In this document: positions 21,266 to 54,490 of the stretch, piece after piece | Layout of the letters: every line of letters begins with the position of its first letter | How positions within the stretch are numbered: the first letter of the stretch is position 1 | Assembly: GCF_032854445.1 (NCBI RefSeq) | Contig: NC_088295.1 | Coordinates: forward strand, 10,279,385-10,343,384 | DNA length: 64,000 nucleotides | Source: Liolophura sinensis | Lineage: Eukaryota > Mollusca > Polyplacophora > Chitonida > Chitonidae | Direction of reading: 5' to 3' | Translations under genes and position numbers: made by a program | Notes under the pieces: model-generated | The model's input: only the letters and a program-made list of their open reading frames with translations | Database searches by the model: none | What the model was told of the DNA's origin: nothing

Positions 21266-24200
21266 ATGCAGCTTTCCAGTTTGAATGAAATACTTTTTGT
21301 ACTTGCCTGCGTGGCACATTTTGCGCATGCCGAACTTTTCACTGCAGTTGTGGAACTTCAAAAAGCTTTGTACGCAGAGAAAGAAGTTGCAGGAGAGCTG
21401 AGAAAATACATCCGATCAGAAGAAGAAAGACTTGAAAAATTACGAGCGTGAGTATGACTTTGGAAAGTAGATTTTAATTCAGAATCAGATGGCAATAATT
21501 AGTATGAATGTTGTTGTGGGTTAAAGGAACTTGCATAAAATAGCCAATATCATTGTGGAACGTTCAACGAAGCAAACTATAGGTCATGTAGGTGACAATA
21601 AAGAAGACATTCCAACAAATTATGCAAAGAAAAAGACTTGTGGCACACAGTAATACTCTTATGTTTGTGAATAGCTTGTGAATCATTCAATATAATATGG
21701 AATCGTTAGCTCAAGAGGCTGAAGAAGAATAGAATAAGTAATTATTTAGTAACAATGTATAAAACATTGAATGGTTGATTCCTTATTGAATATATTTAAA
21801 TTGGATACACATTCTCTTAAATACGGGTTCTTTTGTGTACTTGTATGTAGTGGTTTGATATCTTGCAGTAATTAAATTAATCCCGATAATTCAACTCCCA
21901 CAGGCTTGACAGCATCCTTATGTTAGGAGGCTTGTCTGGTACCTGGCCATGGTTGGTGTCATCTGCCCATAAACCTGGGTACTTTTAATGTGGAATAGGC
22001 ACTGGGACTTGGTCAAGTGGTCAAGTGCTTGTGGGCCACTGGTGATGATAAACAGTTGATGTCCCTTATGTGGTCATCTGCACAGTCTTACATTCATTGA
22101 AGACCACTTGTCTTCAGTTAGTATAGTGTGCTTATCTGTACGTCACTTGTGGAAAAGTTTGTCAGTAACTTCCCATAGGTCAGTGGTTTTCCCCAGGCAC
22201 TTTGGTTTCCTCCATTTGTGAAAGTGACTTTCATCACATAGTGAAAAATTCTTCAGGACGTCATTAAACAGCAATCAAATAAATAGATTAACTTGTGCAT
22301 GGATCTAAATACAAATCTTCGAAATAACAGCAAACATTCGAATTCTCTTTAATGAAGTTTAGGAGTCAGTGGGAAAGTTTCACATAAGAAGGGCTTTCCA
22401 GTTTTCCATTCATTCAAATTTCACCTCGTTTTGTTAAGCTACATTGTGCCTACTGTTAGACTGCTAAATTTTAGTACTAGAAAAATACATGGTAACGATG
22501 TGCCTGAAAAAGGAGAAAGAATGATGATTATGGAAATCCTGATAGAAGTTCTTTTTCAAGTATCCCCATCCTGGAGATTTCCCAGATAGTTATGGGTTTC
22601 CGAGGGTCTTAAAGAGGTTATACCAGAGATTATTGGTATCAGACCACAAATTGATTTTTTGAAATTCCATCACTTTGGTACTCATATTATTAAAACTTTC
22701 AAAAAGTATAACTGTTGGCTTGTTTGTTTTTTTGGTAAGTATTTTGGTATACAACAGTAACTTGTAAACACATACCACAAGACAAAGGAATTAAAGGTAA
22801 TATACAATGTACATGTACGAATGTATACTGAGCCCCAACATGTACTGCAGAGGAATTAACAATATGTACAGTACACCAAGCCCTGCCCAGCTATGTGAAC
22901 CTGAGCTTATTTAATTTTCTGTCTGACATGCACATGGAATTGTAGAGCAACCCACATTATACATTTGTACAAAACATTTTAATACTGTTTAATAATATGT
23001 TTAACACTGATGAATCTGTTATTGTCAGCAGTTAAAATTTGAAAAATTTGATTTGCTCATTTTTATAATGTTTTTTTTTTCTTTTTTGGCCCTTCACAAT
23101 CTGCACTGTAGCTTTTTTAAGTAGAGTGCATGTAGGCAATGTTTTAATAAGTTGCAGTGTGCTGATCCACAGTGTGCACAGGTTGAGGCTACCACATCTT
23201 GTGTGACATTTACCTGGTTTTAATTTATGCACTTATGAAAGAAATACTTGTCTGACAGCTAATGCCTAATGTCATATATTCTCCTTTGTGAGACAAAAAA
23301 AAATACTGGTATACTAAAAAAATAAATAAAAAGCCTGTTTAGTTATTATAAATATAAAAAATTATTTCTATTTTGAACCTGTTTTCAATATATGTAACCT
23401 GCACCTCTGGTTTTGATTTAGTAATTTATTGTTCTATTCCTCACCTAACTTTGACGTATAATAATTCAGTTTCTCTGCTTTTTCTTACAGAATAGCCAGC
23501 GATTATGAGCGGCATGCTAATTTAGCTTTAGGAAACACAGAGTACTATTTAGCAAATCCAGTCAATGCGTTTTTACTTGTGAAGAGGTTCACTCTGGACT
23601 GGGGAAAATTAGACAGCTTGCTCAGCACTCAAGCCAATACAGGTAAGTTATGAATCATGTTTTTGTTTTGCTCTTGTGGAATTTTTTTCTTATAAAGGAA
23701 GATCTTGAAACATTGAATCAAAAAAGTTTATTGAAGGAAGGACAGTGGAAGAAAGACATCTGAAACTTACTGACAGGCAATCACTTCACATTTCCTGTTT
23801 TAATTCTGCAAAAAAAACTTTAAATAGGAAGACAATACTTAAGACAAGATAGTTTTTTTTTTTGATGTTATAGTGGTGTATTAATCAGATGAATTTCACA
23901 CATCAAACTATGATCTTGTTGAAAACAAAGTATCTTTAAAAAAAATAAAATATTTTTGCTTCTTAAAAAGCTGAAGGCATTAAATTTCAAATTGTGTGTC
24001 AGTTGATATCTGTTCAAATCAAGCCTTTTCCCAGAATGGATATAGGGGTTCTTACTTCAGCCCTGCCCCTAAGCCACTTAACATGGGAGGTTTATGACAA
24101 ACAACATGTATGAGATTGTTGCAAACACAAGTCCGTACCTCTGTGATCAATTAATTTCACGTAATTAGGCCTGTAAAATGAAAGTCGTGCCTCAGTGACC

Positions 24201-27200: not shown

Positions 27201-30200
27201 TATGACTAAACAGGAAGTGGCCTACATAATATTACATGTACATCATTTGTAATGTTTTCAAGTGCTATATTGTACTACCAGTGATAACATGCTTTATGTT
27301 GTGTGGGAAACCAGATACTATTACTGTATTCCTTATGCCAATAAGTTATGAGAATCCTGGATTACCTCTGTAAGAAAGATGCCAATGATGTCATGTATAT
27401 TTTATTTACATGTATATGGCAGTCCCTCTCATACTTTCAGTTGGTGTTGTGTGAAGCATTGTGGCTATATTGAAGATACACATGATATAATAAATACAGT
27501 AAATGCCGAGGATGCATACACAAGTGGATTTTAAATGCCAAGATCAGGAGAGTTTAAGGAGTAGTTTTTATGGTTGATCTGGCTGTAGTGAGTACATGAA
27601 TTGTGTGTGTGTGTTGTGAATGTGATTATCAGAGACATCTGTACATAACTGTTCTACAGCTTTATCCTGTGGAGTGGGCACTATTAAAATGGTTGATTGT
27701 TTCTCCTCAGTCGGCGGAGGAAGTGGGCTTCCACAAATTTCCCAGCCAGCTTGGGAAACTCCCGCAAAATGTGCATCCCTCATGACCACATAAATATACC
27801 TTCCTGAGAAAGTAATAGCAAGTTACCATGCTGATGTTGAAGTTCAGTGATGTAAAAATATATAAATACTGGATATGTAGAAATATGCACCATGGCTCTG
27901 TAGGGATTTATTTAAAGTCTGATTAATAAGCTTTGTTCCATAAACAATTTATAACGACCACTTTTTACCTATGCATGGTAAATGTAGAAATATGCACCAT
28001 GGCTCTGTAGGGATTTATTTAAAGTCTGATTAATAAGCTTTGTTCCATAAACAATTTATAACGACCACTTTTTACCTATGCATGGTAAATGTACAATTCA
28101 TTTGAAGGATAATTGTATGATTTTCATATTATCAGTTTGATGAAAATAGCTTAACAAAACAAGTTAAAACCCTAAGAAATCAGTGTCATTTGTTGTTATA
28201 AATGTGGTGTTAACTTGGTAGCATGTTTTCCATTATTTACTTCTTACCCTTTATGGCCTAAATCTTAAAATGTTATTTACATGTATTGAGATGATCTCTC
28301 CTTGACATTATGCTACAATTCTGTAAAACTTTCTGTAACTTACATGTAGACTTGTACATAAAAAAAGACATACTTGAACGTAAGGTAAGCATTTTTAGTT
28401 TTGGAGTTGTGTAGATAAAAACTGGCAGGACTGGGTTGTACAAATGTAAATAAGTATAGCTTAAACAAGCTGAAGATCATTGCTCAAACCATATTATTAA
28501 ATCGGCAAATCATTTTTTGTAAAAGTACAAGCACAATTGTTTCACACCATTGGTAGCTGACCAATGTATTCAGGAATAAATGAAAACTTACATTCTACTA
28601 ATATCAGATACATTTATTTATGTCTTAATTTATTTGATTGGTGTTTTACGCCATACTCAAGAATATTTCACGTATATAACTCAGGTGTGAGTTTCTAATG
28701 CGATGCTAGTCTTTTGATTAATTATGCATAAACCACATTGAACAGTACCTGTGTATGCTACATTACATATAACATGGATAGGTCTTGTCTGGCCGGCGAA
28801 GTACCTGTGTATGCTACATTACATATAACATGGGTACGTCTTGTCTGGCCGGCGAAGTACCTGTGTATGCTACATTACATATAACATGGATAGTTCTTGT
28901 CTGGCCTGCGAAGTACCTGTGTATGCTACATTACATATAACATGGGTACGTCTTGTCTGGCCTGCGAAGTACCTGTGTATGCCACATTACATATAACATG
29001 GATAGGTCTTGTCTGGCCGGCGAAGTACCTGTGTATGCTACATTACATATGACATGGATAGTTCTTGTCTGGCCTGCGAAGTACCTGTGTATGCCACATT
29101 ACATATAACATGGATAGGTTTTGTCTGGCCTGCGAAGTACCTGTGTATGCTACATAACATATAACATGGATATGTCTTGTCTGGCCTGCGAAGTACCTGT
29201 GTATGCTACATTACATATAACATGGATAGGTTTTGTCTGGCCTGCGAAGTACCTGTGTATGCTACATAACATATAACATGGATATGTCTTGTCTGGCCTG
29301 CGAAGTACCTGTGTATGCTACATTACATATAACATGGATAGGTTTTGTCTGGCCTGCGGAGAAGCCTCTATTCATGTCATTTGTTTATTAGTCTCTGAAC
29401 CTTGTATTTTGGGAATTGTGCATTTTTTTTTCTGTCGCGATTGCTTTCACTATGATATGATCAGATGGTAAAGCTCATGCACTCGCTTATTAAGAGAGAA
29501 TGCATTTTTTTATACGTCTATGTAACACTGAAGTACAGTGGTTGAAAGAATTTTGAATGCACTTGGGGTTTTGAAAACTCATCGTTGAGAAGTCTTTTCC
29601 TAATTGCTGTTTATTTGTTTATTCCAGACCTCCTTACAAGAATAAATGAGTTGCGTGCTAATTTCCCAGATGTTGAAGATCTGAATGGGTGGCAGCTGCA
29701 CTGTGCGGCTGCAAGACACTTATCAGCTGAACACCAGGGAAATCGCCTCTGGCATTTTGGGGGGACACAGTGTCGTCAGAGCTTACAGGTATGTTTTCCC
29801 CATACTAAATCATTCCTCCCGATTTTCTTGTCATCAGTTTTCATGCAGTTTTGTGTTGCATTTTATTTCCATCTCGACTGATGAGCTTCCCAAAGTAGAG
29901 TATTGTGGTAATTCCAACAAAAGATACAATCATGCATCATGTCATATCTCTTATTTTACATGAACTCATTTGTTTAAATTTTTTTTTACAGAATTCATAA
30001 ATATTTTTATCTTCTTTTTCTGTTGAGTTTGCCCGTAAAGCATGTCATAGAATCTGATTTATTATTAATCGATAATCCTAAAACTGTATGTATTTTTAGT
30101 CTGCTCTTTCCTAATATATTTGCTGATATTTTTGTATTTTGATATGTTTGCCAGAGGATAGACTAGAGAATGTGATAGCATGATTAGAATGACATCTCCA

Positions 30201-33200
30201 GTTTTGTGCAGTTTTGGGGCTTTTTTTCATGATGCAGTTAATCTTTCCCACCTACCCTTGTGCTCCCTTTAGTTCTCATTCTGGCAGGACAGGCTCGTTA
30301 AGCAGGATGTCTTCCCCTTTTTATGACATCACTCACATAATGTTTGCATCCAGGAGACCTGTTTTATGGCTGTGTCTGAGAACTGATCGATAGCCCATGG
30401 AGATTTCATCAAAGTGACTCTGACTATATGTGATCCAGCCTAATAGCTTTGTGTTGACTCTAATTAAGACCAGATGTTCTTCAGAGACCATAGTTTTTTG
30501 TCTTCTTAGCTTTCATCTCAACCTAAACTATCCTCAAGGCAGTTCAATCCAGTCCTGCTCTTTTTGTTATTGAATGTGTCGGAATCATGCAAAAAGCCAA
30601 CAGTTCAAACTTTGACCAAGGATGTAATACTCTTGTTAGCTTTAAAAAGAACATATATGTACATGTGTACTTGTTTCCATTTGAAATTGTACTACAACAT
30701 CTCTTAGGCTATACACTTGAGGGATTCAGCACCATTTTGTTCACTTTAAACACTGTATATCATTGTATAAACCCTATATTGTCTGTATCTAACTTGAGGA
30801 GAGCAGCGACTGAGATTGTGAGTATGTTGTTGTCCATCAATCATAATGCACTTTTTTTTCCCTGATCTATCCTCTGAAAAAGGTCTATTAAATCCTGTGT
30901 GTCATGATTTGTAGTTGTTTTTACATCAGGAACAAAGGTAACAAGTGTTGAGCCTTGGTTATTCAAGTCCATGTACTTCTTACCCTTGGGCTGAAAGGAA
31001 GTCAGTTATTTTACGTGTCAGTGTACATCTATGTCTAGATGTCTAAGTATGGACACCCATTGTGCAAATCAGATGGAGTTTTTATGCTTCTGATTTGTAC
31101 TGCTAAGCTGTTAATATTTCCCAGAATTTAATATTCCTAAAACAAATCCACATAGAATCATCATGATTTACCTAGCAGATGTACTTCAGGGATTGTGAGA
31201 AATTCATTGGTCATTACTTGTTCCCATTGAACCAGTCCTAAGTGATGATTTTATGTTCACATGGTATTTTTTACTTTTGTACACTTCATTTATAATGCAT
31301 TGCATGATTACAGTGAACCAAATTTAGCTTTGGAGCTAAATGTACACTAAATATACATATAAATCTGTCTGTACTTGCTTATTTAGTTGTGTGTTGGAAA
31401 AATCTCACTTATGTACTGTATGACATTGAAATGTGCGCATGGATTTTGTTGACTGTCAGTTGTATTGCTAAAACATTTATAACCCTGAGTATATACTGTC
31501 CTTTGGCATGTGTGTTATCAGTGAGTGTTGTGTAGTCCAGCTGTTAGCTGGTTTTGTCAGAGTGTGGACAACTTTTCCTTACCCCTTCTGGACTAACTCA
31601 CTTTCTTCAAAGAGCTATGAGTTATTCATTGTTTCCTTTTGCCATTTCTGAATTGTACGTATATGTAACCCACTGAAAAGATTCTGGTATTGGATCTGTG
31701 ACTTCTGGCAGACTTCTGCTATCAAACCAGACAGTCTCTCTCTTCATGTGTGGGTGGGCCATGTACATGATAGACAACTCTGCCAGGAACACTCTTTTCA
31801 CCTTGTCTCTACCCCCTGTTAACCCCTGCATGTGGAATGTGTTGATTTCAGCTGGGGACTGCTTCCAGCTGGGCAAGTTGGCCTATGAGGACACCGACTA
31901 CTATCACACTGTCCTGTGGATGCAGGAGTCCTTACTAAGGCTGGATGCTGAGCTCAATAAAACAGCTGATAAGCCAGATATTCTAGACTACCTGTCTTTC
32001 TCCATGTATAAGGTAAAATGTACAGGTGTTATTAGGTCAGGTAGACTTTAGACCACTCTTGAAGCAGAGGTAAATTTACCTGTTTCTTCTGAAATCTACA
32101 TTCACTTTCTTAAAACTCTGCAAATAAGTCACAAAATTGTCAGGGGACTGGCAATATGTATTTTACTGGTGAATGTCTGAATTTGATTCATTAGTTTTTG
32201 AGCAAGAACAGGTATTTTAACCTCTATCTATAATATTATTAACTAACAGGTCATCCTGATAAGATTTATTGCATGTAAGTGATAACTGGTCTCAGAAATC
32301 TGTCACCATGCCAATGTTAGCGAAAAGTCCACTTTTTTGATCAGTCTTTAATACATACCAGATATGCCCAGGACAAACCGTTGCTGTTCACGGGCTAAAC
32401 AGTGAAAATACACATCTAATAAAAACAGAAAATGGACGTTTCCATATTGGCACATATGGCATCTTTTCGACCTTTTTTTTTTTTTTTTTTTTGTTTTTCT
32501 GTAGGCTTTAGGATGAGTGAAATCACACAGTGAAATTTGACACAAATGGTTAGATCACTTGGGAGTACTGTACTTCATTTACTGTTAACTATTAAAAGGA
32601 AAGACAACACAACACTACCTTGAACACTGTTTTGCCTTTATGCCATATGAGTATGGGTGGCACCCCTAACATGTCACCTCTCATGGCTTCTTAAGAATTC
32701 CAGATTAAAAGATGATTTATACATCACAATTCATCAATTGTGGCCATTTAGGTCTGTTTCCTCTTCTGAAATAACCAAAGTGAAATTATTTGTTGTCTTT
32801 CCTTTTAATGATATTTCTAATGTACATAATGACTATTACAGGGTAAGTTTTCAGTTGTAATTATATGATGAAGATAAGGATATTTGATAAGACAAAACAA
32901 TGCAATCTTACTTTTTGGATAAGTTTGAATCCGCTAAAAAATTATTAAAACGTTAAAAGTTTTCAGGGGTTAATCCAGACTGGCAAGTCATTCTGGAAAG
33001 AACTTCGATCTATTCTTAATTTTGAAAAAGTGTTCATGTTACTTGTTTTTCTTTTTTTTCTAGCAAAAACAGCAAATCTGAAAGTTGTAATAAGTTTTGT
33101 GATCAATAGCGTGTGAGATTAGGTCTTGTAAGATAATGGTTCCATTTATTTCCACATCTACAAATTGTGGGTGCCGGAAGTGGAAATATGGCAGTAACTC

Positions 33201-36200: not shown

Positions 36201-39200
36201 ATCTTATAATTTGACATTCATATAGTGAACATTTTGTTTTAATCACCACTTGGTAACATTGAACTAGTATTATGATTAAGCCTTTTTAAAAGCAATACAT
36301 ATATTGAGATTTAGATGGATCCCATTCGTCCAGGTTGAGAAAAGGTGCTTAGCTAGAATCAGCTATCATGACTGGGATTTGTACAGACTGTTGGTACTAA
36401 AAGTCCACTATTTTGCCAAGTGGAATGTACTTGAATGTACTTGCTCAGTGTTATGGAAGTGAAATATCTGCTACATGTGAACAAAAGTCCTCATTCTTTG
36501 AGCGCCATGCTGTGATACCCCGCGCTGACTCTTCTGTGTGCCAATGCTGGAAATTGTCTTGTCAGCCTCTCTGACAGGAAATTTTGCAAGATAATTAGTT
36601 TAGCCACATGTCACTTGCATGTCTAATCAGGAGCTACATTTAAATTCTAGCTGTCTGGCAAGGTAATGGAATTGCTTGCAGCTGAATGTCCATTTAGGTT
36701 ACCATAAATGCCTTATTCCTTTTTTGCCAACACCGTCATGTCATTGGATCCAAACAATACATAAAGGCTCATTCTTTTCCAACCATGGTAACTAACTAAG
36801 CTTAAGCTTATTGAATTGAAATAGATTTTGTGATAATTAGAATCTTAAAATAGGCTCAACTTGATAACTTTATAATTCATTACTGCCTCTAGCTGAGTCA
36901 CTTAATACCTATACATCAGTAATAATTTTCTTCTACTGGTCACTGTACATCACCCATCATTTCATGGAAGTTTTCAACAGCTACCAAAAATTAATCACAT
37001 TTTGTACTACTGCAAGACTAATTGTTAGTGAAAAATTCTGTTTACATATAAATGAATTGCTTATGTATCTTCTCCTTGAATCCATAAAATTTTACCATTT
37101 TCTATCATTTTACCAAATTTAGCTAGATGTTTACACAAATTGCAACATATTAGTCAGTAAATTCAACATATTACACAGAAAGTGTGACACTTTTGGCAGG
37201 ATGTACAATATATTACATGGAAAGTGTGACACATTAGACAGGATATACAACAAATTACACTAAAAGTGACATTAGTCACTATGTACAACATATTACACAA
37301 AAAGTGATGCATTAGACAGGACATGCAACATTTTACACAAAAGTATGACACATTAGACAAGATATACGACATATTACACGGAAAGTGTGACATATTAGCC
37401 AGGATATACAACATATTACACAAAAATGTGACACATTAGCGAGGATGTACAACATATTACATAGAAAGTGTGACATATTTGGCAGGATATACAACATATC
37501 ACACAAAAATACGACACATTAGCCAGGATATACAACATATCACACAAAAGTGTGACACATAAGACAGGATATACAACATATTACACAGAAAGTGTAACAC
37601 ATTTGGCAGGATTACAAATGTGCGCACAGTTTGGTATTATAAAGTATATGATGTGCCCTATTTTAACTTACAATAGTAATATAAAGGCTATAGAGAGAGT
37701 TGTCTGTAACAAAGACTGGCATGTTCATTTTAATAATGTTTTGGTGCTGGTAAAATGTCGCATTTCTGTAAGCTACAAGTGTATCCACTTATATCAAATT
37801 ATTGTGAAGTGTTTTGTACATTGTGTAGTGGTATTGTATGAGTCCATGTCGTGTTGAAAATCTGTATTGGGTGAGACGCCACAGGTGTCGAGTCCAATGC
37901 AGATTTCCAACACTCGGACAAGTAGAATACTACTCCAAAATGTACAAAGCACTCCACAATGACCTATTTATTATATAGATTAAACTGTCTACCAACTAAA
38001 ACCTCGCGCACAAATAACGAGCAAAGATACACGTATAGATTAAGCTGGCCTGGAGGAAGGTCTTTCGATCTCCCTGATATCAGCGAGCAATGCACTCACA
38101 CTCCGCCCCTCCCACTGCTTTTATCATATGAAGTTACCTCCCTTTGCTACGGTACAGTAGGAAAAAAAATACTGCTCTTGAAGATCCAGTATCGCTCCAA
38201 GTACAGTACGGTGACATGGTACGATGCAACGGATTTCATTGGATCACATTTATATTAATAAGAGTTATTCTCCTCATTGTTAATATGTAATATATAGAGT
38301 CCATTAGTACACAGTATGTGAATACCACTCCCCAACTTGACCCTCATATGTCTCTGTAGGTGTATGCTGACAGGCACAAGTTGAAGTGTCAGTACAAGCA
38401 CAACAACCACCCCCTGCTACTGCTGGCCCCTGTCAAGGAGGAGGAAGTATACTTGAACCCCTGGATTGTCATCTACCACGACCTGATGAATGATGTAGAA
38501 ATACAGACCATCAAGGCCTATGCCACCCCCAGGGTAAGCACCTCTGGCACAAAATTACAAGTGATAGAGATGTCTTGCTGAAGTGACATGACAGTAACGA
38601 TGGGTTACATTTAGGTTTCCAAAGTTATCAAAATATTGGAACAGTTATAGTTTGTGTCTAGGACTTTTGGTAAGATACTGTGAGATGGTAATAGATATAA
38701 TTAGCAAAACAGTTAGTTGAAGCACTTACATTACTTTCTGAAGTAACAGATAGCCCTAGTGGAATTTTCCAGGCATGGAAGTTAACAGCATAATGTTGGT
38801 CATTGAGTACATTTCTGGGTGATGGTAAGGTATAATTGTGTTGTATCCTTCTGTCTGTCAGTTGAATAGAGCAACAGTTCATAATGCTGTAACAGGCGAG
38901 CTAGAAACAGCTTTCTACAGAGTTAGTAAAAGGTATGTGCGTTACTGTAGGGCATGTAGCCTGTGTCTGCATAGTGGGCATGCCCAAGCTTCGTTGCGAC
39001 TCTCTCCTCCTCTGCTGTGTGATGTGCTGTGACCAGAGAGAAATCGCTGTTTTAACATAGCTGTCATTTCTTGCCCATGTCCGTGTAGCCTTAGATCATG
39101 CGTTGGTGTATGCACCAGTACCTGCTACATACATAAGTGGGGATCTGCATGATGATGGAGCATGTAGTTTTGTCAGCGCACTTCTGTATACTTACTGCAG

Positions 39201-42200
39201 TATTTACTAACTTATATGGATGTTGTGAACCCAAAATTTCTGGATATTGAGAATTTTTTGTATTTTTTTTTTTTTTTATGAATCCTAGATTTCTTTTTTA
39301 ATGAGAAATTATCCAAAATTTCAGCACAGTTGTACATGTAGAGTATAAGATGACAAAGGAACATTTTACAACCTAAGTTGGAACTATTTTGTTGAATGAC
39401 ATTTATGAGTAAAACTCATCTCAAAGATCAGTTCTTTCTGTTATAATTTACAATAAAGACACGTGTGTGTTATAAATAGAATTGCTCAAAGCATTGTTTT
39501 AGATGTAAATTAGGTGAGGCAAGACAAATTCAAGAAACTTTAAAATGTCCTCATTTACTGTACACATACATGTAGATGTGTTTGCTTTAGCTTGATTGAT
39601 GGTATTTGTAGATGTACAAGTTACATGTATATGTGCACCAGTGCCATTTGCTCACTATTTTTGTAAGAGGAAATCAGGTCAAGGGACATGTCAAAGCATT
39701 TATCAAATGGAAATCAAGAAGCTGCTCAGTCTATCTGCATGTATTGTACAAATGGCTGCATGTTACGTCTTGTTTTCTGCATGTTTCTCACCTCTACAGC
39801 TGTCCCGAGCCACCACTGGGACAGACGCCACTTTAAGCGAGCACAGAATCGCCCGCAGGTTTGCTGTCTTTGCCTGGCATTAGCACAAATGTGTCTACCA
39901 TACACCTCCTCTGACTTAATACAAGTAGTTTCATTCAGTCTGTAGCTGCTAACCACCCATGGCTCTCTGCTTTCTAAAATAATGGTGATCCATAAATCAA
40001 CCTCTTCAGTTTTTCAAAATCACTCTCGGTTGTTCTTTATATGAAACCAAAATTTTTTCCAGCATTTACCCTGGCATTTTGGAATGACAAAGCTGCAAAA
40101 TACAGGAGTGTGGCTTGGGACTGCAGAATTAACATTGAGATGACAATCTAGATTTAGTCTTTATTCTTTCATACTGCATTTTGTATCTGTTGTAGTATAT
40201 TGTGTTTATATATCCTAGTATCTGGAAGCAGTAAATGCATGGAGATATGTGATAAGATGTTACTGATATTACCGCAAGACAGCTACCCTACCTTTGTCCA
40301 GAGGGTTAAATTATCCTAAGTTCTGGCTTGATGCAGTCAAATTGTGTTTGTCAGCAAAGCTGAAATGGGCAGGACCCAGAAAAAGGGAATGCTCTCTTTA
40401 AGAGGCTAAATGGGGAAAGACTGTGATGTGAACTACTTTTATAAGGTTTTAGTGGCACAAAATGGTTAAATAAAGGAGGGAAAATATGACCAGCAAATCT
40501 GTTGGATGCAGAACAAATGTGATTATTCTAAATATATGCAGAAACCTCTGCTATTGGAGACAATTCGTATGGTCATGCTTGCCTCTCTGATTTATTAGGT
40601 ATTACCTATGCCAGTATGGGTGTGATTGCTGTCCCTACCCCTGAACATTAATACGTATAGGGTGTTTTGGAGTGCACTAAGTGATAAAAATAAAATATTA
40701 AATGTATCAACTAAACGAGAAATTGTGGAATAATTATGCTCAAACTATTTGTTGAATTTGCTTTTTAATTACTGCCTCCATGGTTTTCACATGGCTTAGA
40801 GCACCTGTCAGCTTTTTGTACAACTATCACTCATTACAAATACATGCAGGTGTATGTAATACATGCACTTGCAAGAACCACGAGCACAAATACTAGTACG
40901 TATGTGTCTGTGTGTAAAAGTTAACATCTTCAAAGCACTTGTGTGTGTTTCTGTAGATATAATATATTCTAACATTCCATGTCGCATCATGCTATTTAAC
41001 CAACTTGGCACTTCCATTGTGTCATCAAAAATAATATTCAGAAGTAGTTTTAATTTTTTATGTTGACAGTAACCTTTGTTAGCACATTTAAGTATGTAAA
41101 ATTGAATTTCAAAGAACTCTTTTTAAAGGGGAAGTTTATTACGGTAAAGGTGAAGACTAAATTGTGTCAGAATGTAATATACTTAATTACCATGAGTTTA
41201 TTTTGGTCAAGGTGAAGACTGCAATGTGTCTGAATGTAACATACTGATGTTAACTATTCTACAAGCAAAGCCACACGTTCCATGGGTTCATGTAATATGT
41301 TAAAAGTTTATTTGATGAGAAAGGAAAATAAAACTGTGATGCTAAATTTTGAAGTAACTAAATCTGGTTTTTTAAGCATCTTGCATGTTTTTTTTTTGCC
41401 TTCAGCGCTTGGCTAAAAGGATTTGAGCATCCAATATTTGAACGTATTAACAAACGGATAGAAGCAGTGTCTGGAATAAACCAGGAGACCTCAGAAGATT
41501 TACAGGTGGGTGTATAAATTTTCCGTAACTGTGGTGTTCTGTTAGCTCCCATCGTTTAAGCCATAGGCATTTTTTCTGTGAAATCCAGAAGTACTAAAAT
41601 GAATTTAAAATCTGTCTAAAATAACAGTAGTGCTGATATTGTCAAAAAACCAACATTTCATCATGTGGATGGGGGATAGTTTGTGCTTATCTGGCCTGTT
41701 AGTTCATCACAATTCAGTTTCCTGGAGCTATTTTTCAAAACGGTTCATCATATGGAATTGAAACTTAATACATACTTCACCATGATCACTTACAGAAAAA
41801 GTTTAACTTTTGTGTATTTATTACCTGCCAGTTTGAGGACTTCTTCCATAATACATTGTTAATTGTATTGAAATTAAACTTGGTACATCTATCCTCCATG
41901 ACAAGTTACATAAGTTCTTTAAGAGGCATATAGAAGTTAACGTCACAAAGTTTCTATATGGATAACAACTTCCGATTTATTTTCTGCTAACGTTCCGACG
42001 AACATTCTAACAGTTATCAAACATGTACATTGAAATGTCAGTAAAAATAAATCAGAAGTTGCTATCCATATAGAAACATGTCAAGTTGCATGTCATGTTC
42101 AGGTTTTGTTCTTTTAAATGTTGATCTTGAGCATAACTGTTATTCTGCTGGCCGGAGCCAGTAAAGGGAGCAGCACTTATCAATGCAACCTTACTGGATG

Positions 42201-45200
42201 TATTGTTCAAATTCAGCCCCCATTTTAACTGCCCAATCATTTCTGACCGTCTCTTTCCAGGTTGTTAACTATGGTATTGGAGGTCACTATGAGCCACACT
42301 ATGACTTTGCCAGAGTAAGTACTTATATAGTTATGTACAAAGTCTGAGCCATTGTATTGATAGATATAATGAAACAAGGGAACTCGTGGAAATGATTTGT
42401 AAGTACTGACCCATAAGGGACATGGCAGTTCTCTTTTTGTTGACTCTACATTTTTTATTTTCCATTTTAACAGTTTTAACAGTCTGAGTTTTTTGTTGTT
42501 TTTTTTTTTTTTTTTTTAATGCAGCCCCCCCCCCCCTCCCTTCCCCAGTAAAGAAAAACTCCCAGAAAAAGAAATTGTGTGGGAGTTTTGTAATTTTGTT
42601 GTTAAGCAGACGAAAAAAAACGCCAGAATTCCCAGAAAAAGATCTTGGGACCAGTGATAATAAGGCAGTCGTATCACGTTTTGCTTCACTGTGGATGCTG
42701 TCACTGGGTTATTATCTCACAGCTTGGGATAACTAAGCCAGTCATTTGGCCGCAGGTATCGTGATTTAAACAAGACCATGAACCAAGTTGTGCTGCAATA
42801 GGCTGAATGTCTCAGGGCCCAAGGTCTTTTCTGGGAATTTTCTCTCTTCCTTTGGGCCTGCTTAAAAAAAAAAAAAAAAAAAACATAGCAAAAAAAAAAG
42901 AAATTTGCCATGTCCTTTATAGGGCTCCGTATGTAAGAGTAAATGAATGTTTTTGTTGTTATTTCATCTTAAATTACCGGTGTGATGTTTGTCAATTGAA
43001 CTTGTGCAGAATACTCTTCTGTGAAAGAGTAAAGCTTTAAGTCTTGCTTTGTGCTATCAACCAATCAGTTTCAAGTGATTGTGTTTTTTCTATAGATGTC
43101 ACTCATAAAATGAAATACCATTGGTTTACATCCTCGGATAACCTACTGGGTGCAGTGGGCATTCTAAATATTATATACAGGTGTTTTCACTTTTTGGAGC
43201 GAACAGTGTATGCCTCTTTGGGGCCACTTTAACAAATCTTTGTAGATTAAATTGCTTGTAAATCTCTACGTAAATGACGTACAGCTGACATACACAGTTT
43301 GTGAAAGTGACATCATATTAAAGAATGTGTGCCTCAGCTGTCTTTGAAAACCTCTTTGAACTATAGCATGTTGTTATTATTCTGTGAGACATTGGTAAAT
43401 CAGGATATTATGTCCCATGACACTCCAGCAGACCTTGGTCTGTTAGAATAACCTGTGACTGCAATCTTCCGGTGTCCTTATGACAGGACTTAGGTCTCCT
43501 ATTGATTTTGTGTCTGAAGACACTCCAGATTAACTGTGTCTCGTTGTTTTCCTGTGGCTCATACATGTATGTCGTTACCTGAAGTACAGATAATGGTGCT
43601 AATTGTCATTTCCTCCAGACAGCTTCCGGTTTCCAGTGAAGCAAACTTGATCATTTCGTTCCACCAGATAGCGGGTCTTCCCTGGGTTTTTGCAATGAAC
43701 TAATTGCTGATCGGGTTCTTCCTGATTAGGTTGTGGTTTTATGTCAGGCAGTGTATCAGGCACCTGCCAAGGTGTGGTTGTTTTCTCCTTCCCATTGGGC
43801 TTTTCTCAGTTTCAATCCCTTGTGAATCTGACCAAGCGCATATAAGTGACATTTACTTGAGTTCAACTCCAGTAAACACCAAACACCAATCAAGCCTGAA
43901 TTTTATTAAATGACCCCATGATCTCAATAGGCAGGATGTATAACTTCTGAAAAGTATTTAGCTTATGCTTTTATATCTGATACTTTTGTTGTGTCCAATG
44001 ATCTCTGTGCACTTAGAGGCTTCACTGTTGTAGATTAAGATGCATGTACAGTCCTCGAAAAGCAGAGGCAGTTTTATTTAAAATCCAGCTTACAGTCTCA
44101 ACCACATTTGTTCTCTAATAATATTTTCTTGAACTTTTAGGTCAGGACAAACCTGATTTCAAAATTATATTTTAGCTTGGATCAGTCTCATACTTGAGAC
44201 TACTTGAGAATATGTCTTGATTTTGTGTCATATGTGGGAAAGTTCATGAGTTTCATGTACTTGTGCCCAGGTTTCCTCAGGACAGTTTGGTTTCCTATTA
44301 CCATGAAGCTTATAGCCATTGTACCAGTATTGGTATGTCTTATTGTGTATGGTATTAAAACTAAATCAAGAACCTATCTTTCAGAGGGAATCAGAGACTC
44401 GGTTTTGACGTATTAAACTTTGAATTTTTGATATTTGGTAATAAATATATGTATACATGTATATTTACAGGCAGATCTTCCTATTATTAATAGTTACCTG
44501 TAAATATGTATATTAATGGCACTCAAGATTTTCAATAATTAGAACTGAAAATTTGAATTGAATGTACATTTATGGCCTAAGATTTCACCCCCAGAATTAG
44601 TTGCACAATTTGCTTTCATGTGTTTTGCTGTTTTGATGTTTGTTTGGAAGATAGAATTACAGCAACAAAAGCAATATATTATGAAATTTCTTTATCATCA
44701 ACAGTGGACATTTTGGGGTGAAATTTTAGGTCATTTATCGTAATTATAGCGTAAAACAGGTACTACAATTGGGTTAAATTCCCAATGTAGGTATCTGAAG
44801 GCTGACTAGAAGATGGTATGATACTGCGGCCTGTTTGCCAACTGTGTAAACCCTGAGTACATGTATGTTCATATTGAAAGCATGGGTATAGTCTTGCTCA
44901 GCTGGTAGAGGTTGGCATGTAAGGCTGTACAATGGAATGGCATTATCCTAATGGTCAGTGGTAAGTGTGAAACAGAGATAACCTGCCATCTACATGGTGC
45001 ATTGCAGAGAAAGGAAAAGACTCCGTATGAAATACTTGCTGGGAACCGGATTGCAACCGTGTTGTTCTATGTAAGTCACACTGCGTACTTGTCACATGGT
45101 CAACGAGAGAAGCCTGCGGTGGATGTAAGAATGGGGTGCTGGGTAGACAGGCTTTAGGCAGGACTAATACACTAGCACATACAGAGGACTGCTGCACCTA

Positions 45201-47499
45201 TTTCTGCCATACCTGTGAATGATACAGAGGATTGCACTTGATAATTCTATGTAATGGTGCATCCAGGATGTGTGCATGAATAACCAGTACATTTGGACTT
45301 GATGATGTGTATGAACATGTAGGTTTGGAGCCATGTTTCACCTTCGACTGGATAGGTCATTAACATCTTCAGGGATGCCTTTCAGAATTCTTACTTTCAA
45401 ATGATATCCTGATGAAACTAGCGTCTAGTTTCGTCAGATGAAAAAAAGCTGTCAGCGAAAAATGGAACATGGTCACTGCCCTGTCTGGTGATTGCATCTT
45501 TTATAGGGTCTATTTGACATGAAGTGAAATTTGTAGGAACAAGCATCCAGAAACTTTATTAAATGACCTGTATCAGTAATTTGGATGGCGCATTTAGTGA
45601 ATCAAGGCTCTGTATGGACTGGGTGTGCTGGTCCTGCTTGTAGTCTGTTACCATAGGAGTTAGATGCATTAGATGTGCAACCACCGAACTGTGATGATTA
45701 ATTTCTCTTTTGTTTGTAACCTAGCTTGTATTAACTGTCCTATCATTGTCACAGAGAGACGAAAAACATGCTTTTCCCGAAGAGCAAGCAAACAGGATTG
45801 CCACACTGCTGTTCTATGTAAGTTTAGATGTTGTAGGAGTCCTCGCTGTATGACAATTCTGCGGTCTTAAACCCACCAAGCTCTCTGCAGGTTCTTCCCC
45901 ACCTGATCGCCTGCACTCACCCACCTTGTCTGTGTTTGCCACTGACTGAGAAAGGTTGTGCTTAGAACTAGCCTGGCTCTAGCCACTACTTACACCACTG
46001 CAAACAAACCCCCCATTAGCAACTACACCTAGACGCTCACACAATTACAGTCTCGACAAAACTTACCTTTTCCACAGGGGTCTGGGGAATTTATTTAACC
46101 AGTAAAGAGCGCAGACCAAGTGGTGATTGAATTCCTTTCTCAGGGGTAGGGAACGGTAGCAGAGGTGCATTATGTGGCATTCAAGCAGTTGACAATTTGC
46201 CAGAATTGTTGAGGGGAGTATAATCATGTGGTGATAAATACAGCATTGTGGACAAGAAATCAATTTCACCCAGGATAGGTGCACCATTGCTGTCAAATGA
46301 TGTGGAATAATAAAAAACAAGTTTACTTTGGCTGATTCGTATGTACTGAAGGGTGGTGGCTTTGTCAGGGCACTCCAGTTTTCTCCAAACATGAACTTGA
46401 CTTGTAAATAAAAGTCATAATCATTTAGGGAATTCGTCTCGTTTAAGCAGTGGATCAGAAAGTTTTATGGAATACTTGTGAGACAGTATTTGTATGACAA
46501 TTTTATCCAGAATCATGAAAGCTGCCATTAAAATTCAAGTACATGCACGTGTGTGTGTTTCCCCATTTTAAGGTAAAACAAAAATGATTAAAAATTGCAA
46601 GATAATGTAATTTTGACACATACACTGTATTAAATATAGCTGAATTAGGCGTACAGTATTTGTGAAACAGTCGGTGGTGTGTGATTTGGCATTAGTGTAG
46701 GGGTATGGTGAGGGGTAAAGGTTTGGTAGCTGCATGTATGGGGGGGGGGGGGGGAGGTGGAGGTGCACTCAGTGCTGTGGCTTTGTCATGTACATATCGG
46801 CTCTGGGCTTGGTCAAAAATAAGCTGCATTAACATTGCACTGTTCTGAATATGTGAGGTGTGGTTAACAGTAGATTTGCATGAGCTGTAATTGCCGTTTT
46901 TATATGTAATGTGTTCAGATGTTGTTGAAAAGTTCCATGTTATTAATTTATGCATTCTTACGTTTTGGGTTATAATGTACATGTACGTGGGAATATAAAA
47001 TTCCTCTTTTAATCTGCTGCTAGTTCTAAAAAATAGTCACCTGCATTAAATAAACATCTTAAGTTTTTAAACTTTTCTCGAGTAAATTTCAGTTTTACCA
47101 CTATATTTTATCTGCATGTTGATGCAATTTTAGAAGAAGAAATGGTTGTGATATTAGCTCACCAGAGTGACTTGTTTCTTGTACAGATGAGTGATGTGGT
47201 TGCTGGGGGTGCCACTGTCTTCCCCTACATTGGCGTCAAATTATTTCCTGAGAAAGTAAGTAATCCAGGCCATCCTTTCCTTTATATTTTAAAATAACTA
47301 TGTAATTTTTGGTGGGCCTGAAGAAGCAGAGGAACTGGGACTTGGTTTACATACGGAGCTATGATACAATCTAGTAAATTTGCATTTGACGCAGATTTGT
47401 GACCGCTTTATTAAAGAGGCCATCAAATTTTGTGAATAAAGTTTCCTCTCTTCAGTTTTGTAAATAGTTTGTTTAGATTGAAGGAAATCTAACATTAGG

Positions 47500-47548
<49 letters not shown>

Positions 47549-47801
47549 TTAGGAATGGCAAGTGTTGAAAATGTGTTCTAGGCAGACATGTTACAGGTTC
47601 ATGCATTGTATAATTGTTTGTGTTACGTAACAGGGTGCAGCGGCGTTCTGGTTTAACCTGTACAGAAATGGAGAAGGAATATATGATACACGACACGCAG
47701 CCTGCCCTGTACTCTCTGGCTCCAAATGGGTCTGCAACAAATGGATGCATGAACGAGGTCAGGAGTTCCGCCGGCCCTGCAGCCTGCGACCTGATGAGTA
47801 A
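21266..47801 (+). CDS. P4HA: Prolyl 4-hydroxylase alpha subunit, with three tandem alternative exon pairs
   Basis: Catalytic subunit that hydroxylates prolines in collagen-like X-Pro-Gly repeats in the ER, as a complex with protein disulfide isomerase. Exons: 21266-21447, 23491-23642, 29628-29788, 31852-32012 (4a) or 33939-34099 (4b), 34569-34620, 35669-35856, 38360-38533, 38862-38932 (8a) or 39800-39858 (8b), 41406-41505, 42261-42314, 45008-45070 (11a) or 45755-45817 (11b), 47187-47255, 47634-47801. With exon 3 read in its conserved frames the protein is about 532 residues; human P4HA1 has 534. The start at 21266 gives a signal peptide (MQLSSLNEILFVLACVAHFA). The N-terminal helical domain is followed by the peptide-binding TPR region (about 145-245) and the 2-oxoglutarate/Fe(II) domain (about 345-525). 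Iron ligands are in EPHYDF (His 428, Asp 430) and DTRHAACP (His 498); the 2-oxoglutarate Lys is in SGSKWV (508). The His-Lys spacing of 10 matches the family. Exon 3 has frame breaks, listed separately. Confidence 0.92.
21900..22290 (+). mobile_element. Composite SINE copy in P4HA intron 1
   Basis: The right half shares CGTCACTTGTGGAAAAGTTT, GTCAGTAACTTCCCATAGGT, TTTGGTTTCCTCC and AGTGAAAAATTCTT with the element at 34905-35150. It ends in AGCAATCAAATAAATAGA, the tail type of the mollusc SINE family. Confidence 0.6.
24865..25035 (+). mobile_element. Mollusc-type SINE, longest and best-preserved copy
   Basis: Runs from TTTGAGTGCAAGTCCAGCTT through CTGGCTTCCTTTCCAGCTGT, GGAAAGTCTGCCAGCAGCCT, GGTCGTGGGTTTCCCGCGGG and CTTCCTCCCACCATAAGTGA to ACACCAATCAGATAAATAA. 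A reading frame on either strand through it is a repeat artefact. Confidence 0.85.
26285..26455 (+). mobile_element. Degenerate SINE copy
   Basis: Keeps a weak version of the family order: GGGAAAGTCTGTTGGTGACT, GGTTACCCTCGGCACCTCAC, AGGTGAAAAATCCATGAGTA. Intronic in P4HA. Confidence 0.5.
26640..26702 (+). mobile_element. SINE 3' end fragment
   Basis: Only the family tail remains: TTGAGTACGGCATAAAACAC followed by CAATCAAATAAATTAATAAA. Confidence 0.7.
27875..28093. repeat. Near-perfect 107-bp tandem duplication
   Basis: The segment starting ATGTAGAAATATGCACCATG is followed, 107 bp later, by a copy that looks identical, ending CCTATGCATGGTAAATGTA. Intronic in P4HA. Confidence 0.9.
28622..28685 (-). 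mobile_element. SINE 3' end fragment, minus orientation
   Basis: Reverse complement of the family tail: TTATTTGATTGGTGTTTTAC, GCCATACTCAAGAATATTTC, ACGTATATA. Confidence 0.7.
28745..29362. repeat. 56-bp minisatellite in P4HA intron 2
   Basis: About 11 units beginning GTACCTGTGTATGCTACATT, then ACATATAACATGGATAGGTC and TTGTCTGGCCTGCGAA. Units differ at a few positions (GGATAG, GGGTAC, GGATAT). It ends 265 bp before exon 3. Confidence 0.92.
29628..29788 (+). CDS. P4HA: P4HA exon 3, with three reading-frame breaks
   Basis: The acceptor TTCCAG and donor ACAG|GTATGT are good. The incoming frame reads RINELRANFPDVEDLNG. Conserved family sequence then continues in other frames: a short VAAAL stretch, then RLQDTYQLNTREIASGIL, then VSSELTA joining exon 4 (A|GDCF or A|EDCF). 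The breaks fall at about 29688, 29703 and in the run of six G at 29759-29764. A single one-base shift near 29688 could replace the first two, but it loses the conserved Ala-Ala-x-Ala-Leu spacing before RLQDTY. As given, the exon cannot produce the family protein. Miscalled homopolymers are likely; a genuine mutation remains possible. Confidence 0.75.
31852..32012 (+). CDS. P4HA: P4HA exon 4a (alternative copy), peptide-binding domain
   Basis: 161 bp, entering after one base of a codon and ending at a codon boundary, between TTTCAG and AAG|GTAAAA. It encodes GDCFQLGKLAYEDTDYYHTV, LWMQESLLRL and a region ending LDYLSFSMYK. This matches the TPR-like peptide-substrate-binding region of P4HA (human DCFELGKVAYTEADYYHTEL). 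It is about 57% identical (30 of 53 residues) to exon 4b, 1.9 kb downstream. Confidence 0.9.
33939..34099 (+). CDS. P4HA: P4HA exon 4b (alternative copy), peptide-binding domain
   Basis: 161 bp with the same phases as exon 4a, between TTTCCAG and AGG|GTAAGA. It encodes EDCFQLGRFAYNQKDYYHTV, MWMQEALERG and a region ending LDYLAYAMSR. If spliced after 4a, the frame would shift and meet TAG after six codons. If both copies were skipped, the frame would also fail. Confidence 0.9.
34415..34486. mobile_element. Half copy of an inverted-repeat MITE
   Basis: Matches the right arm of the element at 41940-42083: GTAAAAATAAATCAGAAGTT, then TAGAAACTTTGTGATG. No left arm is visible. Confidence 0.6.
34905..35150 (+). 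mobile_element. SINE copy in P4HA intron
   Basis: Shares ACAGAATTTGTAGATTTCCC and GGGGCCTAGGTGA with the reverse complement of 5232-5405. Shares GAAAAGTTTATCAGTAAGTT and AGTGAAAAATTCTT with 21900-22290. Confidence 0.65.
35868..36110. repeat. Degenerate tandem repeat beside P4HA exon 6
   Basis: About six irregular units around CAGGGGACACAAAGCTACGC and TCTGGCC start 12 bp after the exon 6 donor at 35856. The open frame running from the exon into this repeat is a read-through artefact. Confidence 0.55.
37150..37615. repeat. Minisatellite of about 41 bp in P4HA intron
   Basis: About 11-12 units of ACAACATATTACACAAAAAG, TGTGACACATTAGACAGGAT with small indels. The minus-strand Cys/Met-rich reading frame across it is an artefact of the repeat. 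Confidence 0.88.
38862..38932 (+). CDS. P4HA: P4HA exon 8a (alternative copy), 71 bp
   Basis: 71 bp, phase 0 in and 2 out, between CTGTCAG and AAAAG|GTATGT. It encodes LNRATVHNAVTGELETAFYR and VSK. Length, phase and position match the two 71-bp mutually exclusive exons 9 and 10 known in vertebrate P4HA1 (human LSRATVHDPETGKLTTAQYR). Confidence 0.92.
39800..39858 (+). CDS. P4HA: P4HA exon 8b (divergent alternative copy), 59 bp
   Basis: 59 bp with the same phases as 8a, between CTCTACAG and CGCAG|GTTTGC (a weaker donor). It encodes LSRATTGTDATLSEHRIAR, then Ser shared with the next exon. It keeps the x-x-R-A-T start and R-I-x-x-S end of the family, but is four residues shorter. Using 8a and 8b together leads to a TAA within 8b; skipping both leads to a TGA in exon 9. 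Confidence 0.72.
41406..41505 (+). CDS. P4HA: P4HA exon 9
   Basis: 100 bp after TTCAG, ending TTACAG|GTGGGT. It completes the SAWLKGFEHPIFERINKRIE region of the catalytic domain and joins either 8a or 8b in phase. Confidence 0.9.
41940..42083. mobile_element. Inverted-repeat MITE, about 140 bp
   Basis: The left arm (GTTTCTATATGGATAACAAC, TTCCGATTTATTTT) and the right arm (AAAATAAATCAGAAGTTGCT, ATCCATATAGAAAC) are reverse complements with a few mismatches. About 65 bp separate them. It lies in the P4HA intron before exon 10, and a half copy is at 34415. Confidence 0.8.
42261..42314 (+). CDS. P4HA: P4HA exon 10, iron-binding HxD motif
   Basis: 54 bp encoding VVNYGIGGHYEPHYDFAR. The EPHYDF segment carries the His and Asp that bind Fe(II) in this enzyme family. 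Phase 0 on both sides, so it joins 11a or 11b directly. Confidence 0.93.
42315..45007. other. P4HA intron 10, with homopolymer tracts and a SINE
   Basis: Contains a T tract followed by about 13 C (42500-42537), an A tract near 42863-42881 and a SINE at 43715-43900. No further exon was recognised. Confidence 0.55.
43715..43900 (+). mobile_element. Degenerate mollusc-type SINE
   Basis: Shows TCAGGCACCTGCCAAGGTGT, GTTTTCTCCTTCCCATTGGG, ATAAGTGACATTTACTTGAG and CACCAAACACCAATCAAGCC in family order. Confidence 0.6.
45008..45070 (+). CDS. P4HA: P4HA exon 11a (alternative copy), catalytic domain
   Basis: 63 bp, phase 0 on both sides, between CATTGCAG and CTAT|GTAAGT. It encodes RKEKTPYEILAGNRIATVLF plus Y. 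This is the segment right after the HxD motif; human has GNRIATWLFY at its end. Confidence 0.88.
45755..45817 (+). CDS. P4HA: P4HA exon 11b (alternative copy), catalytic domain
   Basis: 63 bp, phase 0 on both sides, between TTGTCACAG and CTAT|GTAAGT. It encodes RDEKHAFPEEQANRIATLLF plus Y, identical to 11a at 11 of 21 positions, with the conserved NRIAT and LFY. Including both copies keeps the frame, so mutual exclusion must be enforced by splicing, not by frame. Confidence 0.88.
45818..47186. other. P4HA intron 11, no exon seen
   Basis: Contains a run of about 14 G at 46741-46754 inside a purine-rich stretch. Nothing else recognised. Confidence 0.5.
47187..47801 (+). CDS. P4HA: P4HA last two exons, 2-oxoglutarate site and C-terminus
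   Basis: Exon 47187-47255 encodes MSDVVAGGATVFPYIGVKLF. Exon 47634-47801 encodes GAAAFWFNLYRNGEGIYDTR, HAACPVLSGSKWVCNKW and an end with RGQEFRRPC, then stops at TAA. The His of RHAACP (third iron ligand) and the Lys of GSKWV (2-oxoglutarate carboxylate) are both present. Confidence 0.94.
47500..47546. repeat. (AT)n microsatellite
   Basis: About 22 uninterrupted TA dinucleotides in the last P4HA intron. Confidence 0.95.
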
Positions 47802-50800: not shown

Positions 50801-51117
50801 TTGAGAGTGACGCATGCCCCGTGGGAAGTATGTATAACAAGCTCTACATAAAGTGATCTGCAGTTACGTTTGGTTGATCCAGTGAGCCAAGTCAGTAGAG
50901 TCCTTTAGTTAGAAGTTACAAGTACTAACTTGTAATTTCAAATCAGAATTAGTTTAGCTATTCTAGTTTGAAGTTACAAGCTACAAGAACTAAAGGTCTA
51001 TAAAAGGTCTCAGACAAATGACAAAAACAGTAAAACCTTCATCCTGATTCGGTTTCCTCCAATTAATGGCACTTTTAAGTCTTTTTTTTATGTTGTAAAA
51101 ATTGAAAGCATACTATA
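47802..51117. other. P4HA 3'UTR and downstream flank
   Basis: No coding sequence recognised. AATAAA signals on the plus strand lie at 48953-48958, 50359-50364 and 50458-50463; any could end the P4HA mRNA. If the last is used the 3'UTR is about 2.7 kb. Confidence 0.4.
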
Positions 51118-51890
51118 GCAGCTAGTTCATCTTTATTTGTCTTATGGTAGCCTCCCTATGGTGTTTCCTCAGCATTGTACAGTGGCTAGTTCATCTTTAT
51201 TTGTCTTGTGGTAGCCTCCCTATGCTGTTTCCTCAGCAATGTACATCAATTTATCTTTGCTTCTCTTGTGGTAGCCTCCCTGTGGTGTTTCCTCAGCATT
51301 ATACACCAGCTAGTTCATCTTTATTTGTCTTGTGGTAGCCTCCCTATGGTGTTTCCTCAGCATTGTATAGCAGCTAGTTTATCTTTATTTGTCTTGTGCT
51401 AGCCTCCCTATGGTGTTTCCTTAGCATTATACACCAGCTAGTTCATCTTTATTTGTCTTATGGTAGCCTCCGTATGGTGTTTCCTCAGCATTATACAGCA
51501 GCTAGTTCATCTTTATTTGTCTTGTGGTAGCCTCCTTATGGTGTTTGCTCAGCATTGCATAGCACCTAGTTCATCTTTATTTGTCTTATGTTAGCCTCCC
51601 TATGGTGTTTTCTCAGCATTATACAGCAGTTCATCTTTATTTGTTTTGTGGTAGCCCCCCTATGGTGTTTCCTCAGCATTATACAGCTGCTAGTTCATCT
51701 TTATTTGTCTTATGGTAGCCTCCCTATGGTGTTTCCTCAGCATTATACAGCAGCTAGTTCATCTTTATATGTGTTGTGGTAGCCTCCCTATGGTGTTTCC
51801 TCAGCATTGTACAGCAGTTCATCTTTATTTGTTTTGTGGTAGCCCCCCTATGGTGTTTCCTCAGCATTATACAGCTGCTAGTTCATCTTT

Positions 51891-54169: not shown

Positions 54170-54490
54170 TGGTAGCCTCCCTAAGGTGTTTCCTCAACAA
54201 TATACAGCGGCTAGTTTCTCTTTTTTTTCTTATTGTAGCCTCCCTATGGGGTTTCCTCAACATTGTACAGCAGTTCATCTTTATTTGTCTTATGGTAGCC
54301 TCCCTAAGGTGTTTCCTCAACAATATACAGCGGCTAGTTTCTCTTTTTTTTCTTATTGTAGCCTCCCTATGGTGTTTCCTCAACATTGTACAGCAGTTCA
54401 TCTTTATTTGTCTTATGGTAGCCTCCCTAAGGTGTTTCCTCAACAATATACAGCGGCTAGTTTCTCTTTTTTTTTTTTCTTATTGTAGCC
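54170..54490. repeat. Triplicated two-unit block inside the minisatellite
   Basis: Three successive blocks of about 120 bp each combine CCTCCCTAAGGTGTTTCCTC with AACAATATACAGCGGCTAG, TTTCTCTTTTTTTTCTTATT and a standard unit. Confidence 0.8.

Follow-up and report, generated by a model that had tools for sequence, protein, structure and literature searches.

Can a single gene for the alpha subunit of collagen prolyl 4-hydroxylase (P4HA) supply a series of enzymes that differ in how they hold their collagen substrate? This question is raised by a locus of the chiton Liolophura sinensis, located in a stretch of 64,000 nucleotides (the window) for which a sequence-only reading had proposed tandem copies of exons 4, 8 and 11 in matching phase. 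With a probability of roughly 0.7 we regard this gene as one of an ancient lophotrochozoan type, whose tandem duplicate exons are used singly and swap elements that contact collagen. The proposed doubling is strongly supported for exons 4 and 11 and moderately for exon 8, where the second copy is a probable one. As many as eight enzymes could in this way come from a single gene.

Judged by domain and structure matches, the plus-strand region from the ATG at 21266 to the stop codon ending at 47801 is a single collagen P4HA gene with 13 exon positions and three extra copies, and all introns, including those of the alternative copies, have GT/AG ends. Exon 1 (21266..21447), whose borders were mapped, contains the start codon, a hydrophobic leader and the start of the dimerization domain, and matches Pfam P4Ha_N weakly (E 9.2e-4; 19.5 bits, cut-off 25.3). 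The domain continues in exon 2 (23491..23642; P4Ha_N 41.2 bits, above the cut-off) and ends in exon 3 (29628..29788), which needs more than one frame as assembled. The substrate-binding domain is encoded by exon 4 in two copies, 4a (31852..32012) and 4b (33939..34099), by exon 5 (34569..34620; alignment with 9hpq) and by exon 6 (35669..35856), which by alignment also carries the linker. The catalytic domain, placed by alignment with 7zsc, starts in exon 7 (38360..38533) and proceeds through the hairpin loop of exon 8a (38862..38932), the usual form of the family, or of the probable alternative exon 8b (39800..39858). It then runs through exon 9 (41406..41505), exon 10 with the H-x-D motif (42261..42314), the beta-II/beta-III substrate loop in its copies 11a (45008..45070) and 11b (45755..45817), and exon 12 (47187..47255), and it ends in exon 13 (47634..47801) with a conserved His, a conserved Lys and the stop codon. 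We take H-x-D and the distal His to be the iron ligands and the Lys to be the 2-oxoglutarate ligand.

Two composite proteins, 4a-8a-11a and 4b-8b-11b, score well above the Pfam cut-off of 27 for both TPR_P4H (115.8 and 116.0 bits) and 2OG-FeII_Oxy_3 (48.8 and 50.1 bits). The best solved match is the catalytic domain of human P4HA2 (7zsc, E 2e-86), with the HxD...H and Lys residues conserved. In a quickly built, midpoint-rooted tree of 267 constant columns the chiton gene stands beside 23 rows that comprise named molluscs and two further sequences (SH-aLRT 88), a placement that fits a chiton origin. The Pfam domains above cut-off and the position among molluscs thus bear out the assignment to one P4HA gene of molluscan origin. 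The whole assembly that we searched comprises 609,464,459 bases (609.46 Mb) in 632 contigs; the published Liolophura assembly is described with 609.5 Mb, 632 scaffolds and 14x HiFi data (PMC11068029), and a later correction gives the species as L. sinensis (PMC12441733).

Both copies of exon 4 are 161 nt long and match each other by tblastn with E 1.3e-19 and 60% identity over 50 amino acids (57% over all 53). The copies of exon 11, both 63 nt, are linked by tblastn with E 0.004 and 52% identity over 21 amino acids. We also scanned for phase-compatible stretches resembling the exons and scored them against random-sequence nulls: exon 4b reached 177, compared with at most 18 among 100 random sequences, and exon 11b reached 54, compared with at most 26 among 400. 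At the level of sequence, pairs 4 and 11 are therefore secure as homologous tandem copies of the same phase. The pattern of substitution indicates that the copies are old and under selection at the protein level. This is clearest at pair 4, where the third codon position is the most diverged (identity by codon position 0.68/0.75/0.47) and dN is 0.31, while dS is not computable, as under synonymous saturation. For pair 11 the identities are 0.52/0.67/0.57, with dN 0.48 and dS 1.24. The introns flanking the copies showed no likeness beyond that of shuffled sequences in any of six comparisons.

All eight combinations of exons 4 to 13 are open and distinct, with a length of 365 or 361 amino acids. 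The claim of eight products stands as far as these exons go, but it has to be qualified, since exon 8b is only probable and exon 3 is frame-broken as assembled. Inclusion of both copies, or of neither, leads to an early stop or a frame shift at exons 4 and 8, whereas at exon 11 the frame is kept upon double inclusion or skipping. A check by the reading frame is therefore present at pairs 4 and 8 only.

The elements that would be swapped can be located on human structures. The substrate-holding loops of human P4HA2 are given as residues 363-376 (hairpin) and 435-448 (beta-II/beta-III) (PMC9676403), and the 72-residue spacing between them agrees with the sequence of 7zsc. Exon 8a aligns to residues 361-383 of P4HA2 and exon 11 to residues 436-457 (7zsc alignment with checked numbering), and R435, with which the beta-II/beta-III loop begins, is still encoded at the very end of exon 10. 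The groove of P4HA1 is described as lined by Y158, D192, Y193, Y196, Y199, R223, N227, Y230, F231 and Y233 (PMC12433258). By a hand count on the alignment, exon 4 carries positions Y158, D192, Y193, Y196 and Y199; copy 4a has a phenylalanine at 196 and a tyrosine at 199, copy 4b a tyrosine at 196 and a serine at 199. From these alignments to the groove and the two loops, each alternative exon would replace an element that contacts collagen. The proposal that the substrate-binding domain, the start of the catalytic domain and the segment behind the iron motif vary is thereby sharpened to the substrate-binding groove and two substrate loops of the catalytic domain. The ligands of iron and 2-oxoglutarate, as assigned above, stay in the constant exons 10 and 13.

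We propose that the choice between 4a and 4b would swap helices lining the proline-binding groove of the peptide-substrate-binding domain, and that the choice between 11a and 11b, and probably also between 8a and 8b, would exchange both of the loops that enclose the collagen chain in the active site. The isoforms would share the same dimerization and the same catalytic chemistry. From the groove residues, 4a and 4b are predicted to differ at the P5 pocket. With such exchanges of groove and loops, splicing would tune which X-Pro-Gly contexts or which collagens are bound and hydroxylated. We infer that the copies are used in chiton RNA, one at a time, and that this changes specificity; by analogy with the human structures, the isoforms may be expected to differ in substrate choice.

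Relatives of the chiton were surveyed by two protein searches (best 120 of 2916 and best 120 of 3095 matches; union 130 proteins), and eight same-species protein pairs were compared outside and inside the three segments; these isoforms are mostly gene-model predictions. In Haliotis asinina and Mytilus galloprovincialis the predicted isoforms are identical except for exon 4, in M. trossulus exon 11 is the single difference, and in Physella exons 4 and 11 differ while the rest is identical. For these four species the isoforms are listed on contigs of equal size, which suggests one gene each. The Biomphalaria isoforms differ in exon 11 and in addition by 24 gap columns, and the protein pairs of Mytilus edulis and Dermacentor show no difference at the segments of exons 4, 8 or 11. 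A look for the same pairs in related molluscs, proposed as a check by the sequence-only reading, thus found pairs 4 and/or 11 in several of them; a second exon-8 type is absent from the named molluscs among the 130 listed proteins.

The predicted proteins of the brachiopod Lingula anatina (P0098 and P0108) differ at exons 8 and 11 and are identical in the remainder, and one of them holds two copies of exon 4 and lacks exon 5. Although they are listed on contigs of different size, the two proteins probably derive from one locus. As judged from these predicted proteins, Lingula seems to share the three-position design, with two types each of exons 4, 8 and 11 at the positions found in the chiton; its second exon 8 comprises 24 residues, compared to 19 in the chiton 8b. 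The sequence-only reading knew of no description of a three-pair gene; judged by Lingula, the chiton gene does not seem to be the only one of its kind. When we searched with the Lingula region for more proteins with a b-type exon 8, the two Lingula proteins alone were returned.

Two full copies of exon 4 were detected by a pattern search in five of the 130 listed proteins. Both copies occur in tandem in Candidula, Pinctada, Tegillarca, Aplysia and Lingula, and as isoforms in Haliotis asinina, Mytilus galloprovincialis and Physella. In all eight relatives one copy has an aromatic residue at position 199 and the other a non-aromatic one, and in 5/5 relatives with tandem copies the aromatic copy comes first, the same order as in the chiton. 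Residue 199 is aromatic in 37 and non-aromatic in 20 of 57 exon-4 segments, of which two are from the chiton and 55 from 50 of the 130 listed proteins (two Nucella proteins with partial second copies excluded). The b-type is the single exon-4 type seen in cephalopods among the listed proteins. Two copies of exon 11 were found in three of the 130 proteins, from two ticks and the nemertean Lineus, and two types of exon 8 in one, from the annelid Owenia fusiformis (P0113). In the nemertean and tick proteins (P0072, P0116 and P0120) both exon-11 versions stand in-frame, and double inclusion may be real. By eye, Owenia P0113 also seems to have the short exon-5 segment twice in succession, possibly an additional pair, which was not seen in the chiton.

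Bivalves, gastropods, the chiton and Lingula all have pair 4, and its order is a then b in the chiton and in the five proteins with tandem copies; this argues for one origin before the split of molluscs and brachiopods. When an exon-4 peptide tree is built from every column, 18 of 20 b-type segments cluster, including that of Lingula (support 89/88), with the a/b labels assigned by residue 199. Without the columns from D192 on, in a reduced tree that omits Tubulanus and Dreissena, neither the placement of all 18 b-type segments in one clade (p-AU 0.45) nor a sister relation of chiton 4a and 4b (p-AU 0.40) is rejected. By itself, the tree is therefore also compatible with a private duplication in the chiton lineage.

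Tandem alternatives at the two catalytic loops have counterparts in vertebrates. Human P4HA1, of the same family, has one tandem pair per gene that is spliced singly (9/10, also 9a/9b or 10a/10b), which we take to lie at the position of exon 8 and to encode the catalytic hairpin loop. Both human copies have the usual 71-nt form, whereas the chiton 8b is 12 nt shorter. The exon 12b variants of P4HA2, with 12a as the alternative, lie very likely at the position of exon 11, as we presume. A review describes mutually exclusive transcripts for both P4HA1 and P4HA2 in vertebrates (PMC12525012), and for P4HA2 another paper describes a pair of splice variants that differ slightly within the catalytic domain and involve exon 12b (PMC9676403). 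The sequence-only reading drew the comparison with the P4HA1 pair but overlooked P4HA2, whose single pair of mutually exclusive variants belongs to another paralogue than the exon-8 pair. The 9a form of human P4HA1 has been reported to result in more invasion and collagen deposition than 9b (PMC11868403).

Whether these similarities go back to common ancestry is evenly balanced in our view. Convergence would mean that the same loops were duplicated independently in several lineages, leaving the vertebrate pairs at exons 8 and 11 as lookalikes of those in the chiton. In a human-fly comparison common ancestry was reported for 7 of 42 shared tandem-exon events (PMC9741552), and the order of the long and short exon-11 forms differs between the ticks and Lineus. 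The exon 8 and 11 peptides are moreover too short for a tree. On the other hand, it is the identical two loops of one gene family that are affected in several phyla. A more far-reaching scenario, in which an early bilaterian P4HA already had alternative exons for both catalytic loops, the lophotrochozoans kept both in one gene and added the groove pair, to yield a combinatorial code for reading collagen with up to eight enzymes, and the vertebrate paralogues divided them, appears rather unlikely to us.

A doubtful, but still serious, alternative concerns exon 8b. Possibly pairs 4 and 11 alone are real, and 8b merely resembles an exon by chance or is a degenerate copy no longer spliced, so that four products could be formed, as in other molluscs. 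Exon 8a has 71 nt (23 residues) and 8b has 59 nt (19 residues), and tblastn did not match either copy to the other at E <5. Exon 8b is an exception to the claimed good splice sites: of the 15 donors of the gene its donor scores lowest (0.3), while the acceptor is sound (5.4). In the scan 8b ranks second among the exon-8 candidates of its intron, and its score of 25 lies below the maximum of 28 in a null set of 400 random sequences. The absence of a second exon-8 type from the listed proteins of named molluscs agrees with this two-pair alternative. In contrast, a score of at least 25 was reached by just 5 of 2000 random introns and by no block among the other 43 in the window (0/20 on the plus strand, 0/23 on the minus strand), and 8b fits in phase between exons 7 and 9. 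A stricter scan (0/1000) is given no weight, since its site thresholds were partly set from 8b and excluded even 8a. Among known forms 8b scores best against the usual oyster exon 8 (29), followed by the second Owenia type (19), 8a (18) and the second Lingula type (13); these scores give no sign of a kinship with the second types. Such a second type of exon 8 exists in both Lingula and Owenia, and that of Owenia follows the usual one, like that of the chiton. We consider 8b, from these sequence features, to be probably a genuine alternative copy of exon 8.

That the locus is a decaying pseudogene and its duplicate exons are relics is very improbable. The suspicion arises from exon 3 (29628-29788), which according to the tblastn pieces starts in one frame and goes on in another, with at least two shifts. 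The frame changes lie near the G runs 29687-29689 and 29759-29764, within about 80 nt, and a third frame at the end of the exon is indicated by a five-residue match (E 1.7) and by the phase that exon 4 requires. As several frames are needed, the assembled sequence does not contain a straight-through full-length protein. However, exons 1 and 2 and all eight combinations of exons 4 to 13 are open, and both composites score high on Pfam. Together with the G runs and the 14x HiFi data this suggests that the shifts are probably errors of sequencing or assembly in low-coverage data.

The doubt whether the second copies are collapsed neighbouring paralogues has been answered in the negative. Within the window the constant exons gave no second match below E 0.05, a search with low power for short exons. 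Exon 4b found in the whole assembly itself, 4a, one weak paralogue (E 0.07) and nothing else. The matches to exons of the P4HA-like paralogues on contigs C1 and C4 (150 kb, E <0.05) are 28-62% identical, apart from three exon-10 stretches of 15-16 residues in these regions with 75-87%. Although such paralogues exist and exon 3 hints at local sequence errors, collapse or misassembly is extremely improbable, because just exons 4, 8 and 11 are doubled, each between its proper neighbours, 4b has no further close copy genome-wide, the paralogue exons are diverged, and relatives show pairs at the same places.

As to how the copies of the chiton gene would be kept apart, steric exclusion by a short intron was considered and discarded. 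The inner introns of the three pairs measure 1926, 867 and 684 nt, which by the usual rules is too long for this mechanism. Pairing of intron ends gave z values of -0.4 to 1.4 in nine comparisons (stretches of up to 700 nt, 12 random pairs each), in a crude test based on whole-stretch energy that would miss short docking sites. The AG-exclusion zones span 17-68 nt, the longest belonging to 8b. As both exon-11 copies are present in the two tick proteins and the nemertean one, strict exclusion at exon 11 may not be general.

Several independent choices between tandem exons within one gene are also a feature of arthropod Dscam, for which three variable clusters of mutually exclusive exons are described (PMC3364881). 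The chiton P4HA differs from Dscam in having two copies per cluster and in encoding an enzyme and not a cell-surface receptor, and the long-range intron pairing of the Dscam type left no sign in the test described above. Among the listed titles and abstract openings of open-licence PMC articles on this family and on duplicated exons, often a small share of the matches, none described three pairs in a P4HA gene or an alternative exon for the substrate-binding domain. The design itself is not unique, as its elements can be seen in publicly available gene models for other molluscs and for Lingula. What the substrate-binding domain contributes to hydroxylation was still called unknown in a paper of 2025 (PMC12433258). 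If used, the exon pairs would represent natural swaps of collagen-contacting surfaces with fixed chemistry, and both substrate choice by collagen prolyl 4-hydroxylases and this contribution of the substrate-binding domain would become directly testable with naturally kept isoforms. Their use would further hint at a way in which an animal with a small number of P4HA genes could modify many kinds of collagen, and would make the two single-pair genes of vertebrates a test case for the division of alternative exons among paralogues.

The surroundings of the gene contain further features. Upstream, at 7649-19363 on the minus strand, lies a neutral ceramidase gene, in which three open reading frames match ceramidase domains (two N-terminal, one C-terminal). 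Intron 2 of the P4HA gene harbours a perfect two-copy repeat of 107 bp (27875-28093) and 11 copies of a 56-bp unit with 93% matches (28744-29358). About 3.3 kb past the stop codon a tandem array (51117-58586) comprises about 118 copies of a 64-bp unit with 85% matches.
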